From Pseudonocardia humida (GTDB taxonomy: Bacteria; Actinomycetota; Actinomycetes; Mycobacteriales; Pseudonocardiaceae), in NCBI RefSeq assembly GCF_023898865.1, contig NZ_JAGSOV010000011.1:62001-126000 (forward strand): a DNA stretch of 64,000 nucleotides, given 5' to 3'. The notes beneath the pieces were generated by a model, which was not told the origin of the DNA, did no database searches, and saw only the letters and a program-made list of their open reading frames with translations. Position numbers and translations under genes: made by a program. Shown in pieces: positions 32,215 to 35,786 of the stretch (position 1 is the stretch's first letter; each line of letters begins with the position of its first letter).

Positions 32215-32640
32215 CTACTCCACGCGGAGGTCGACCTGGATGTTGCCCGCGGTCGCCTTCGAGTACGGGCAGATCGTGTGGGTCTTCTCCATCGCCGCCG
32301 TCGCCTGCTCCCGGGTGAGCCGCGGCGCGTGCAGCGCCAGCTCCACGGCCAGCCCGAAGTTCGGGACCCCGTCGCGCAGGAACGTCACCCGCGCCGTGAC
32401 GTGCGAGTCCTGCAGGGCGTCGGCGGGCAGGTCGAGAGCCGGCACCGCGAAGCGCATGGCGCTGTGGAAGCAGGCCGCGTACCCGGCGGCGAACAGCTGC
32501 TCGGGGTTCGTGCCGGGGCCGCCGTCGCCGCCCATCTCGGCCGGCCGCGAGAGCTGGAGGTCCAGCCGCTCGTCGGAGGACACCACCGCCCCCAGCCGCG
32601 CCCCGTACGCCGTCGCCTCGGCCGTGTAGACCCGCTCCAT
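32215..32640 (-). CDS. ohr: Organic hydroperoxide resistance protein (Ohr/OsmC family)
   Basis: 141 residues. The two redox cysteines are C57 ('GYAACFHSAM', peroxidatic) and C124 ('HTICPYSKAT', resolving); 'GGPGTNPEQLFAAGYAACF' and E47 fit the Ohr rather than the OsmC subgroup. The enzyme reduces organic and lipid hydroperoxides, normally with lipoylated partners. No OhrR (MarR) regulator is adjacent. It converges on the DHFR-like gene across the hairpin at 32121-32167. Confidence 0.9.
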   Translation of the reverse strand: MERVYTAEATAYGARLGAVVSSDERLDLQLSRPAEMGGDGGPGTNPEQLFAAGYAACFHSAMRFAVPALDLPADALQDSHVTARVTFLRDGVPNFGLAVELALHAPRLTREQATAAMEKTHTICPYSKATAGNIQVDLRVE

Positions 32641-32773: not shown

Positions 32774-34240
32774 ATGCGCCAACTCGACCGCGAGCAGTCG
32801 GGCCACCTGCGCCACTGGGACGAGCTGTCGCGCCGCCAGCCCAACGACTGGTCGCTGATGCAGGGCAAGGGCACCGGCCAGGACGACTTCGGCGGCTACC
32901 GCTTCCAGCTCGCCTACATGGTCTACGGCCTCGCGCTGACCCACCGCCACCGGCTCCCGGCCGCGCCGGGCCTGTTCCGCCCGATGATGCAGCGGCTGAT
33001 CGACAAGCTGCTGCTGCCCGAGGTGTGGATGTACTGGCGCGACGTGAGCCGGGGCGGCTCGGTGTTCAACGCCCACCTGGCCGACCGGCTGGGCGAGGAG
33101 TGGGACCCGGTCGTCCGCGACAACATCATGTACAGCGCCTACGTGCAGTCCTGCGCGCTGCTGCACGACCACCTCTTCGCCGACGACCGGTACGCCCGGC
33201 CGGGCTCGCTGACCTTCCGGCACTGGTCGTTCTTCTGGGGCGGCGGCGAGAAGCGCTTCGCCTACGACCGCGACTCGCTCACCGAGCACCTGTACTGGCA
33301 GATGGTGCGCAACGGCTACGTCGGCATCGCGTGCGAGCCCAACTGCGTCTTCCAGATCTGCAACCAGCCGGCCATCCTCGGCTTCCGGCTGCACGACCTG
33401 CTCACCGGCGGCACCCGCGCCGACGACGTCGTGGCCGGCTACGAGCGGGCCTGGGCCGAGTTCGGCCGCCTGGACGCCGGCGGCCACTACAACATGATGC
33501 TGGCCGAGGACAGCCGCGCCGTGCGGCCCAACGAGGCGCCCTCGCCGTGGGTCGACGCCTGGTGCGGGACGCTGATGAACACCTGGAACCGCGACTTCGT
33601 CCGGGAGAACTACCCGCGCCAGGTCGCCGACTTCCTCGTCCCCGGCCCGGACGGCACCCTGTCGGTGCGGTCGGCCCCCGCCCGCCAGGTCATGGGGCAG
33701 CCGGTCGTGACCGACACCTGCGACACGGGCTGGGTCGCGGCGTGGGCCTCGGAGATGGGCGACCGCGCCACCCTCGACGGGCTGCTCGCGCACGCCGACC
33801 GGTTCATGGCCCCGACCTGGCGCGACGGCGCGCTCCACTACCCCCGCAACGACACCCCCGCCGACGCCTGCGGCCACCGCACCGAGATCGAGCCGATGAC
33901 CGGCAACGTGCTGCTCGGCTACGCCCGGCTCAACGTCGCGGACGGGCTGTGGGGGCTCTACAACGAGCCGTGGAGCGCCGCGCACCACGCCGAGCCCGCG
34001 CTCGTCGAGGTCGACCGGGACGTCGAGGTGAGCCGGGCCGAGGTCGTCGACGGCGTGCTGCACGCCCGGTTGCGCCGGGAGACGGCCGTGCCCGGCGACG
34101 GCGCGGTGACGATCGGGCGGGTTCCGGCGGGGGCCCGCCTGCTGCTCGGCGGCACCGAGCTCGACGCTCCCGCCGTCGACGGCGGCGTCGTGGTGCGCGT
34201 GCCCGACGGCCCGGCCGTCGACCTGGCGCTGGTGCCGTGA
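32774..34240 (+). CDS. Linalool dehydratase/isomerase-like protein
   Basis: 488 residues. The first ~390 residues look like the alpha/alpha toroid of linalool dehydratase/isomerase (LDI): 'QDDFGGYRFQLAYMVYGLAL', 'GEEWDPVVRDNIMYSAYVQSCALL' and 'GIACEPNCVFQICNQPAILGFRLHD'. The last holds C187-E188 and C196, the same Cys-Glu...Cys spacing as the catalytic Cys170-Glu171...Cys179 of Castellaniella LDI. The catalytic His of LDI seems to be replaced (MYSAY here). Unlike the periplasmic LDI there is no signal peptide. A beta-rich C-terminal ~95 residues is extra. It is translationally coupled (GTGA) to a SCO protein. Substrate unknown. Confidence 0.65.
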   Translation: MRQLDREQSGHLRHWDELSRRQPNDWSLMQGKGTGQDDFGGYRFQLAYMVYGLALTHRHRLPAAPGLFRPMMQRLIDKLLLPEVWMYWRDVSRGGSVFNAHLADRLGEEWDPVVRDNIMYSAYVQSCALLHDHLFADDRYARPGSLTFRHWSFFWGGGEKRFAYDRDSLTEHLYWQMVRNGYVGIACEPNCVFQICNQPAILGFRLHDLLTGGTRADDVVAGYERAWAEFGRLDAGGHYNMMLAEDSRAVRPNEAPSPWVDAWCGTLMNTWNRDFVRENYPRQVADFLVPGPDGTLSVRSAPARQVMGQPVVTDTCDTGWVAAWASEMGDRATLDGLLAHADRFMAPTWRDGALHYPRNDTPADACGHRTEIEPMTGNVLLGYARLNVADGLWGLYNEPWSAAHHAEPALVEVDRDVEVSRAEVVDGVLHARLRRETAVPGDGAVTIGRVPAGARLLLGGTELDAPAVDGGVVVRVPDGPAVDLALVP

Positions 34241-34752
34241 CCGCCCCGCCGATCCGGGCCGCGTTCGACCTGGTCGACCACCACGGGCGGGAGGTCACCG
34301 AGCGCACCTACCGGGGCTCGTGGCTGCTGGTGCAGTTCGGCTTCACGTCGTGCCGGGTGGTCTGCCCGCGGGCGCTGGCGAAGCTGTCGGCCGCGCTGGA
34401 CGCCCTCGACCCGCCGCCCGGCCTCGTCGTCCCGCTCTACGTCACGGTCGACCCCGAGCGCGACACCCCCGACGTCCTGCGCGCCCACCTGGAGGCCGCG
34501 CACCCGCGGTTCACCGGCCTGACCGGCCCGCCCGAGCGGATCGAGGAGGCGAAGCGGGCGTTCCTGGTCTTCGCCCGGCGCCGCCCCGACCCCGACGACC
34601 CCGACGGCTACGCGGTACCGCACACCGCGATCACGTACCTGGTCGACCCGCGGGGCCGCCCGGCGCACCACTGGCCCGACACCCGTGACGCCGCCGACAT
34701 CACCGCCGACCTGCGCCGGCTCGTCCTGAGCCCACCACCAGACGCGCGATAG
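34237..34752 (+). CDS. SCO1/SenC family protein
   Basis: 171 residues starting within the stop codon of the LDI-like gene. A thioredoxin-like fold with the SCO copper/redox motif C39-x3-C43-P ('TSCRVVCP') and distal H129 ('VPHTAITYLVDPRG'), all three ligands present. SCO proteins normally deliver Cu to cytochrome oxidase outside the membrane, yet no signal peptide or anchor is visible, so this may be a cytoplasmic thiol/peroxide-type relative. The coupling to an LDI-like enzyme is unusual. Confidence 0.75.
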   Translation: MTAPPIRAAFDLVDHHGREVTERTYRGSWLLVQFGFTSCRVVCPRALAKLSAALDALDPPPGLVVPLYVTVDPERDTPDVLRAHLEAAHPRFTGLTGPPERIEEAKRAFLVFARRRPDPDDPDGYAVPHTAITYLVDPRGRPAHHWPDTRDAADITADLRRLVLSPPPDAR

Positions 34753-34904
34753 CGTCCGGGTCGGCCGAGCCGCAGCGGGTCCCTCAGCCACGTCGCAGCC
34801 CCGCCCGGCGGATCCTCGCTCACAGCGCGCACTCAGGTGACGCACAGGTCCTGGATCGACCCGCTGCCTACCGTCGGGTCGTACCCGAGTTGCACGGAGG
34901 AACT

Positions 34905-35786
34905 GTGAAGCGGAACCAGGAAGACGGTCGCGTGCCGACCTACCGCGGTCGTGCCCTGCCCAGGCCGCACGAGGACGTCGTCGACCAGGGCCTGGGCTTC
35001 GACATGGCGACGATGGTCGGGCGGCGCCGGGTGCTCAGGGCGCTCGGGTTGGGGACGGTGGCGGTCGGGTTGGCGGCGTGCGGCGCGGGCGCCGGGAGCG
35101 CGACCGCGACGACCTCGACCGGTGAGGTCCCGGACGAGACGGCGGGCCCGTACCCCGGCGACGGGTCCAACGGCCCGGACGTGCTCTCCGAGAGCGGGGT
35201 CGTGCGCAGCGACATCCGGTCGAGCTTCGGGTCGTCGAGCGGCACCGCGGAGGGCGTGCCGATGACGCTCGACCTGACGATCTCCGACCTGGCCGCGGGC
35301 GGGTCGGCGTTCGCCGGTGCGGCCGTCTACGTGTGGCACTGCAGCCGCGAGGGCGGCTACTCGCTCTACTCGGAGGGGGTCGAGGACCAGAACTTCCTGC
35401 GCGGCGTGCAGATCGCCGACGCCTCCGGGAAGGTCCGCTTCACCAGCATCTTCCCGGCCTGCTACGCCGGGCGCTGGCCGCACGTCCACTTCGAGGTCTA
35501 CCCGGACGAGGCGGCCATCGCCGACGCCGCGAACGCCGTGGCCACCTCGCAGGTGGCGCTGCCGCAGGACGTGTGCGAGGTCGTCTACGCCGAGCCGGGC
35601 TACGAGGACTCGGTGGGCAACCTGGCCGACGTCAGCCTGAGCGGCGACAACGTCTTCGGCGACGACGGCGGGGCGCTGCAGCTGGCCACCGCCACCGGCG
35701 ACGTGACCGCCGGCTACGCCGTCTCGCTGGCGGTCGGGGTGGACACCGGCACCGAGCCGTCCGGCGGCGGCGGCCCGTCGCGCTGA
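34905..35786 (+). CDS. Secreted intradiol ring-cleavage dioxygenase-like lipoprotein
   Basis: 293 residues from GTG 34905, with GGAGG upstream. A Tat-like stretch 'GRRRVLRALGLGTVAVG' (residues 39-55) leads to the lipobox LAAC59, so the protein is probably exported folded and lipid-anchored. The dioxygenase domain has 'GPYPGDG', 'AAVYVWHCSREGGYSLYSEG' (Tyr ligand region), 'NFLRGVQIADASGKVRFTSIFPACYAGRWPHVHFEVY' (Tyr, HxH ligands). These are the Tyr/His ligands of non-haem Fe(III) intradiol enzymes. Extracytoplasmic members may cleave lignin- or humic-derived catechols; the substrate is unproven. Confidence 0.85.
   Translation: MKRNQEDGRVPTYRGRALPRPHEDVVDQGLGFDMATMVGRRRVLRALGLGTVAVGLAACGAGAGSATATTSTGEVPDETAGPYPGDGSNGPDVLSESGVVRSDIRSSFGSSSGTAEGVPMTLDLTISDLAAGGSAFAGAAVYVWHCSREGGYSLYSEGVEDQNFLRGVQIADASGKVRFTSIFPACYAGRWPHVHFEVYPDEAAIADAANAVATSQVALPQDVCEVVYAEPGYEDSVGNLADVSLSGDNVFGDDGGALQLATATGDVTAGYAVSLAVGVDTGTEPSGGGGPSR

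Follow-up and report, generated by a model that had tools for sequence, protein, structure and literature searches.

A linalool dehydratase/isomerase-like protein and a leaderless SCO1/SenC-family protein encoded by overlapping genes in Pseudonocardia humida and recurring as a pair across bacterial phyla

In the window analysed here, a stretch of 64,000 nucleotides from Pseudonocardia humida, two overlapping genes encode a relative of linalool dehydratase/isomerase (LDI) and a leaderless protein of the SCO1/SenC family. The LDI-like gene (32774..34240, +) begins with ATG and specifies a protein of 488 amino acids that carries the Pfam Ldi domain (PF18566) and shows no visible export signal, and the SCO gene (34237..34752, +) begins with GTG and specifies 171 amino acids. 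The GTG start of the latter sits inside the TGA stop of the former, giving the four-base overlap GTGA (34237..34240, +), as could already be seen when an earlier note on this DNA described the two genes as coupled. The genome from which the window comes (G000, 8.29 Mb) contains one Ldi match and one SCO match, and its nearest named relative, judged by the LDI-like protein, is Pseudonocardia lacus (90%). On the other strand, separated from the LDI-like gene by a gap of 133 bases and divergent from it, lies a gene for an Ohr-family peroxiredoxin (32215-32640, -; TIGR03561, E 1.4e-43). Directly downstream of the pair, the gene at 34890-35786 (+) encodes a secreted-looking product that matches PF00775 (E 8e-9), an intradiol-dioxygenase-like domain, and the N-terminus of this product is twin-arginine-like and lipobox-like.

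The LDI-like protein matches the Pfam Ldi family with 372.4 bits (E 2.9e-111), against a gathering score of 26.1. An AlphaFold2 model computed with 27 natural sequences as input reached a pLDDT of 86.1 and a pTM of 0.91, with residues 89-107 poorly modelled, and the best 27 rows of a Foldseek search with this model were LDI chains throughout. When the model was superposed on chain 5i3t_E with VIA-align, 332 residues were aligned with a Z score of 36.2, an rmsd of 2.6 and 21% identity, whereas the next fold listed after LDI, that of a GH105 hydrolase, gave a Z score of only 19.3. The modelling supports the (alpha/alpha) toroid fold of LDI that the earlier note had proposed for this protein. The LDI alignments stop at model residues 402-407, and the C-terminal part beyond the aligned region (residues 405-488; 33986..34237, +) is modelled mainly as beta strands. 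The protein was also thought to lack a signal peptide, and this agrees with its N-terminus, MRQLDREQSGHLRHWDELSRR, which is hydrophilic as judged by eye and begins at the first start of the frame. Lis from Thauera linaloolentis, an LDI relative of 644 amino acids that needs a reductant, is predicted to have four transmembrane segments at its N-terminus (PMC4791888); no such helices are seen in the window protein, in which the Ldi domain starts at residue 43 behind the hydrophilic N-terminus.

The product of the second gene matches the Pfam SCO1-SenC family (PF02630) with 144.3 bits, against a gathering score of 22.8. Its model has a pLDDT of 93.5, and the best structural matches are SCO structures, namely copper-bound Arabidopsis ScoI (E 3.6e-18) and human SCO1. 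The motif of the family is given as CXXXCXnH (PMC9145763), and all three metal ligands previously read from the sequence are in place: the metal/redox cysteines of C39-x3-C43 (34351..34365, +) and H129 (34621..34623, +), which aligns with the third copper ligand, show no substitution in any of the 25 aligned relatives, although identity drops to 47%. Also invariant in the 25 aligned LDI-type SCOs are H145 (34669-34671) and D148 (34678-34680). The window SCO, which is 34% identical to 6n5u, has the thioredoxin-like fold, the C-x3-C pair and the distal histidine in common with SCO1/SenC chaperones such as human SCO1, Arabidopsis ScoI and Bradyrhizobium ScoI; unlike them, it has no visible transmembrane or lipid anchor and is partnered with an LDI-like enzyme. 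Oxidase-assembly SCOs are described as carrying a membrane or lipoprotein anchor (PMC9145763). By hydropathy, no hydrophobic segment that could serve as such an anchor lies upstream of the window SCO domain, where the N-terminus is hydrophilic and the maximum over 17 residues is -0.15, whereas ten anchor-like SCOs, drawn from both paired and other genomes, reach 1.2 to 3.1 by the same measure; this agrees with the reported lack of an export signal in this protein. LDI-type SCOs with at least 200 bits have upstream values of at most 0.86 (L045 being too short to score), and the partial SCO matches L124 and L127 have values of 0.33 and 0.66. A weak full-length match of 29 bits (L119), with a value of 0.62, is a misfit to the anchor split. 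Both the LDI-like protein and its SCO partner are probably cytosolic.

The pairing of the two genes is not due to chance, because it recurs, as the neighbourhood survey called for by the earlier note has made clear. Among 28 named loci searched with tblastn, an SCO gene is present in 26, lying directly downstream of the LDI-like gene in 25 and upstream of it in L034, and none was found by tblastn in L057 and the fragment L059. When named, unnamed and plasmid loci are combined, each of the 49 non-redundant same-locus pairs has both genes on the same strand, the LDI-like gene coming first in 43 and the SCO gene in six. The gap within the pair is 1.3 kb in L034 and about 10 kb (9.9 kb) in Variovorax, and no LDI-SCO fusion was found among the loci examined. 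The occurrence of both gene orders suggests that the arrangement arose more than once. Pairs are found in Actinomycetota, in Alphaproteobacteria and, 10 kb apart, in a Betaproteobacterium; the hosts include Pseudonocardia, Actinomycetospora, Amycolatopsis, Saccharothrix, Streptomyces and Mycobacterium triplex, and also Bradyrhizobium, Rhodopseudomonas and Tardiphaga, together with a conjugative plasmid of Allorhizobium and a plasmid of Variovorax. The bacteria that carry such LDI-like proteins, nearly always with an SCO, are inhabitants of soil and plants, and the hosts of the pair are presumably aerobic, unlike the host of LDI. Evolutionary distances among the SCO proteins correlate with those among the LDI-like proteins (Mantel r 0.738, 48 pairs, 0/999 permutations), shared ancestry explaining part of this correlation. 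At one locus (L086 5077-9030), an LDI-like gene, an SCO gene and a second, divergent Ldi gene stand in a row on one strand, and Cys-Glu-Pro was not found in the second Ldi. A class D Ldi that adjoins the pair in G035 showed no Cys-Glu/Gln-Pro pattern, but the cysteine-bearing L109 went undetected with this pattern too.

The association extends to genomes in which the two genes are not adjacent. Of the 390 genomes sampled from the window's family, 60 contain an Ldi match of some kind, and a strong SCO match is present in all 43 genomes with a full-length LDI-like protein of the paired clade, compared with eight of the other 347 (Fisher 1.6e-49, a statistic that ignores phylogeny); strong here means E below about 1e-25, a threshold chosen by eye that leaves out weaker matches, 100 of the 390 genomes having a match in all. 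The two genes are neighbours in 38 of the 43 genomes, as judged by eye from their coordinates, 1.3 kb apart in one and unlinked in four, and the four unlinked SCOs are of the same leaderless type, with 229 to 268 bits. In three of the eight exceptions (G023, G026 and G284), the SCO gene adjoins an LDI-like gene that is partial, a remnant or frameshifted, and the other five (G036, G197, G253, G376 and G377) have an SCO with a hydrophobic or lipobox-like, anchor-like N-terminus. In G026, a leaderless-type SCO (L120 5427-6097) follows only the C-terminal part of the LDI-like protein (query residues 425-486), so that the enzyme seems to have been deleted there, with the tail and the SCO remaining. 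Nor is the pairing one to one, as G279 and G177 each encode two paired-clade LDI-like proteins but give one SCO match. No SCO adjoins L103, a fragmentary additional copy in G254, and L060 has none within the stretch read and an SCO match 13 kb away; Mycobacterium triplex and Pseudonocardia spinosispora have a single SCO each. Outside the sampled family, Ldi was found in 4 of 248 genomes of the family of Tardiphaga (G390), and across the window's phylum in 7 of 396 genomes, the window's own counted.

These distributions bear on two other accounts of the pair. A role of the SCO in serving cytochrome oxidase is disfavoured, because the anchor is missing and the SCO is nearly absent from relatives without LDI. 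The two genes might also be no more than a mobile cassette held together by transfer, the LDI-like protein having a separate function, as would suit the presence of the pair on a conjugative plasmid and the mixture of phyla within the clade; we consider this very improbable, since both gene orders, the co-occurrence of unlinked genes in four genomes and the joint presence and absence over the 390 genomes argue for selection.

The active-site region retains much of LDI from Castellaniella defragrans (5hlr/5g1u/5i3t), with which the window protein has the Pfam domain and the fold in common. The motif C187-E188-P-N-C191-V-F-Q-I-C196 (33332..33361, +) contains both catalytic cysteine positions of LDI and a third cysteine specific to the clade. 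C187-E188-P189 and C196-N197 align with C170-E171-P172 and C179-N180 of LDI and are invariant in 27 of 27 rows, in agreement with the catalytic spacing that the earlier note had recognised, and M124 of LDI is conserved as well. The same note saw the catalytic histidine as apparently replaced, which is true of the window protein, with Y123 (33140..33142, +) aligned to the active-site His128 of LDI, and of most of its subclade, but not of all paired members, as the SCO-paired L056 and L058 keep the histidine. The loss of this histidine is therefore not tied to SCO pairing. At this position, class A has Tyr in 38 of 40 rows and His in two, class 2 has His in two, Tyr in four, Arg in four and a gap in one, and class B has mostly Trp or Tyr; these classes were set by HMM score, and L056 and L058, although labelled A, group with subclade 1. 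The position of Tyr65 in LDI is taken by F44, with Phe in 38 of 40 class A rows and Tyr elsewhere apart from two gaps. For Asp38 of LDI, MAFFT places a gap, and an ungapped reading gives D16, in a column with D in 20, E in four and A in three of the 27 rows. Rows shorter than 250 amino acids were left out of the alignment and those shorter than 300 out of the tree.

The disulfide of LDI between C48 and C101 is described as essential and as capping the active site, and LDI produced in Escherichia coli as functional in the periplasm only, cytosolic expression giving inactive protein (PMC6600392). Both columns are free of cysteine in every row aligned, whether of class A, 2 or B. As class B is also without the disulfide, its loss is not special to SCO pairing; nevertheless, because a structural disulfide essential in LDI is missing and cytosolic LDI is inactive, the clade looks, from its sequences, as if it had been rebuilt for the cytosol. 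The window protein thus departs from LDI in having no visible signal peptide, no C48/C101 pair, Tyr for His128 and Phe for Tyr65, and in possessing the third cysteine C191, an extra C-terminal beta region and an SCO partner.

The third cysteine, C191, forms C187-x3-C191 in the LDI-like protein. All 51 rows of the SCO-paired classes, among them members with an unlinked SCO and the fragmentary copy L103, have this cysteine, as do three plasmid members (L130, L131 and L132). The class B paralogues have the Ldi domain and keep C170 and C179 in 23 of 23 rows; unlike the paired clade, they have C191 in none of the 23 (Trp in 18), and the 3 to 13 kb read at each of their loci show no SCO. LDI itself has Asn at this position. 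The SCO-paired clade forms a single branch of the tree with support of 100/99, in a tree with long branches for LDI and L109, and since all of its members are on that branch, the association of C191 with pairing counts as one evolutionary event.

Beyond the pair itself, clustering of open reading frames over about 6 kb around 27 loci and the window revealed no widely shared pathway, the largest neighbour clusters among the 11 listed reaching 5 of 28 regions when the pair and antisense shadow frames are left aside; an Ohr reading frame fell into a shadow cluster and is uncounted. Pfam families were assigned to 127 neighbouring reading frames, a subset of 257 called by a script based on codon-position GC, some of which are surely wrong. 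Among the commonest 25 of 124 families, most are regulators (TetR 7, LysR 5), OsmC and P450 account for three of the 127 each, and neither copper transporters nor copper chaperones appear. A few loci are more telling. On the Variovorax plasmid, genes for the SCO, a TetR regulator, a ThDP enzyme, an SDR, an alcohol dehydrogenase, a five-gene ABC importer, a hydrolase and the LDI-like protein lie on one strand in an operon-like array, and ABC-importer genes flank the pair in one Bradyrhizobium and one Tardiphaga locus. A 29-kb plasmid of Rhodococcus erythropolis carries a paired-clade LDI-like gene (C191 present), with no SCO gene on the plasmid, beside genes for an aldehyde dehydrogenase, an alcohol dehydrogenase and an acyl-CoA ligase, a set that resembles the steps from geraniol to geranic acid after LDI. 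These neighbours in Variovorax, Bradyrhizobium, Tardiphaga and Rhodococcus point to alcohol or terpenoid catabolism as the setting of the pair. Within one such pathway the two proteins need not touch, and the SCO could guard against oxidative or copper stress arising from the substrate or the pathway, a role as a peroxidase-like thiol protein being one example. Foldseek lists peroxiredoxins after the SCO structures, and OsmC and P450 proteins among the neighbours, like the Ohr gene just upstream in the window, would fit such a role. However, we regard it as improbable given the small size of the neighbour clusters listed (Ohr being uncounted) and the correlated SCO and LDI distances, to which shared ancestry contributes.

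Partnership between the LDI-like protein and the SCO is well supported, and its nature, including copper, chemistry and substrate, is what we infer here. A redox or copper dependence of the LDI-like protein through its SCO, as proposed, would fit the lack of variation in the SCO ligands and the extra cysteine of the clade, and the near-constant pairing suggests that the cysteines of the enzyme need copper or redox servicing. Copper is normally scarce in the cytosol, which speaks against a copper role. The cysteines of the CuA site in cytochrome oxidase are spaced C-x3-C, and the action of SCO on those of subunit II would serve as a model. CuA is held in subunit II by two cysteines, which an SCO-containing metallochaperone module reduces and metallates (PMC6696091). 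By analogy, an SCO that has shed its membrane anchor may serve the LDI-like enzyme in place of the oxidase, docking in physical contact on the active-site loop and acting on the C187-x3-C191 pair together with C196. Delivery of copper and maintenance of reduced thiols would make the enzyme workable in aerobes. The enzyme itself would be an LDI-fold catabolic enzyme, most likely a hydratase, dehydratase or isomerase of an allylic or tertiary alcohol. Such a cytosolic module, with both copper delivery and reduction, is the explanation to which we incline, tentatively.

Reduction could also be the whole of the matter, the SCO being a thiol-disulfide reductase and the LDI-like enzyme being metal-free, with LDI-type acid/base or thiol-covalent chemistry. 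C170 and C179 of LDI are reported to need to be reduced, LDI to be oxygen-sensitive and to require DTT (PMC6600392), and Lis to be activated by dithionite or DTT (PMC4791888). The thioredoxin-like fold of the SCO makes thiol chemistry possible, and since a third cysteine in the active site would invite trapping as a disulfide in aerobes, a reductase reserved for this enzyme is plausible. A pure reductase, however, would have no need of His129, the copper-ligand position that is invariant in the 25 aligned relatives, and the cytosol already has thioredoxin or mycothiol systems. The enzyme has gained a cysteine within the segment of its catalytic cysteines, and the SCO has kept every copper ligand without an anchor. 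We favour copper transfer with reduction, and hold reduction alone to be somewhat doubtful. In the boldest form of the copper reading, which we think unlikely, C187, C191 and C196 would hold a copper-thiolate centre within the LDI fold and the leaderless SCO would be its dedicated cytosolic metallochaperone; such an enzyme would found a new class of copper enzymes inside the cell, and the SCO would have a client that is neither respiratory nor exported.

In the account given in PMC6600392, LDI stands almost alone in sequence space, and Lis is the only notably similar protein named. No published report of an LDI-SCO pair was found among the matches listed in the open-access literature, a search to which subscription papers are mostly external. 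On this basis, a clade within the Ldi superfamily that lacks several of the features defining LDI, together with an SCO that lacks the anchor, would be a variant not reported before. Disulfide-free, apparently cytosolic relatives of LDI with a maturation partner of their own would matter for alkene hydration chemistry, and a seemingly cytosolic SCO that tracks a single enzyme would offer a clean system in which to distinguish copper transfer from electron transfer by SCO proteins, or to find both.

The class B paralogues have surroundings of their own. Two annotated plasmid cases are 734 and 642 amino acids long. Around loci L094-L109 and L063-L073, 74 neighbour proteins were compared with Pfam, a subset of 195 called reading frames plus two plasmid genes, and the rubber oxygenase-like family MPAB/Lcp accounts for 6 of the 74 and DUF5134 for 5. 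On a Rhodococcus opacus plasmid (L133 4170-7439), a class B Ldi gene is followed by a gene for a Caa3_CtaG oxidase-assembly protein, possibly a membrane counterpart of the SCO pairing; it is a single case, and Caa3_CtaG is absent from the commonest 25 of the 62 families among the 74 neighbours. On an Aureimonas plasmid (L135 3637-6260), a class B Ldi gene overlaps the end of an annotated uppS gene, encoding a polyprenyl diphosphate synthase.
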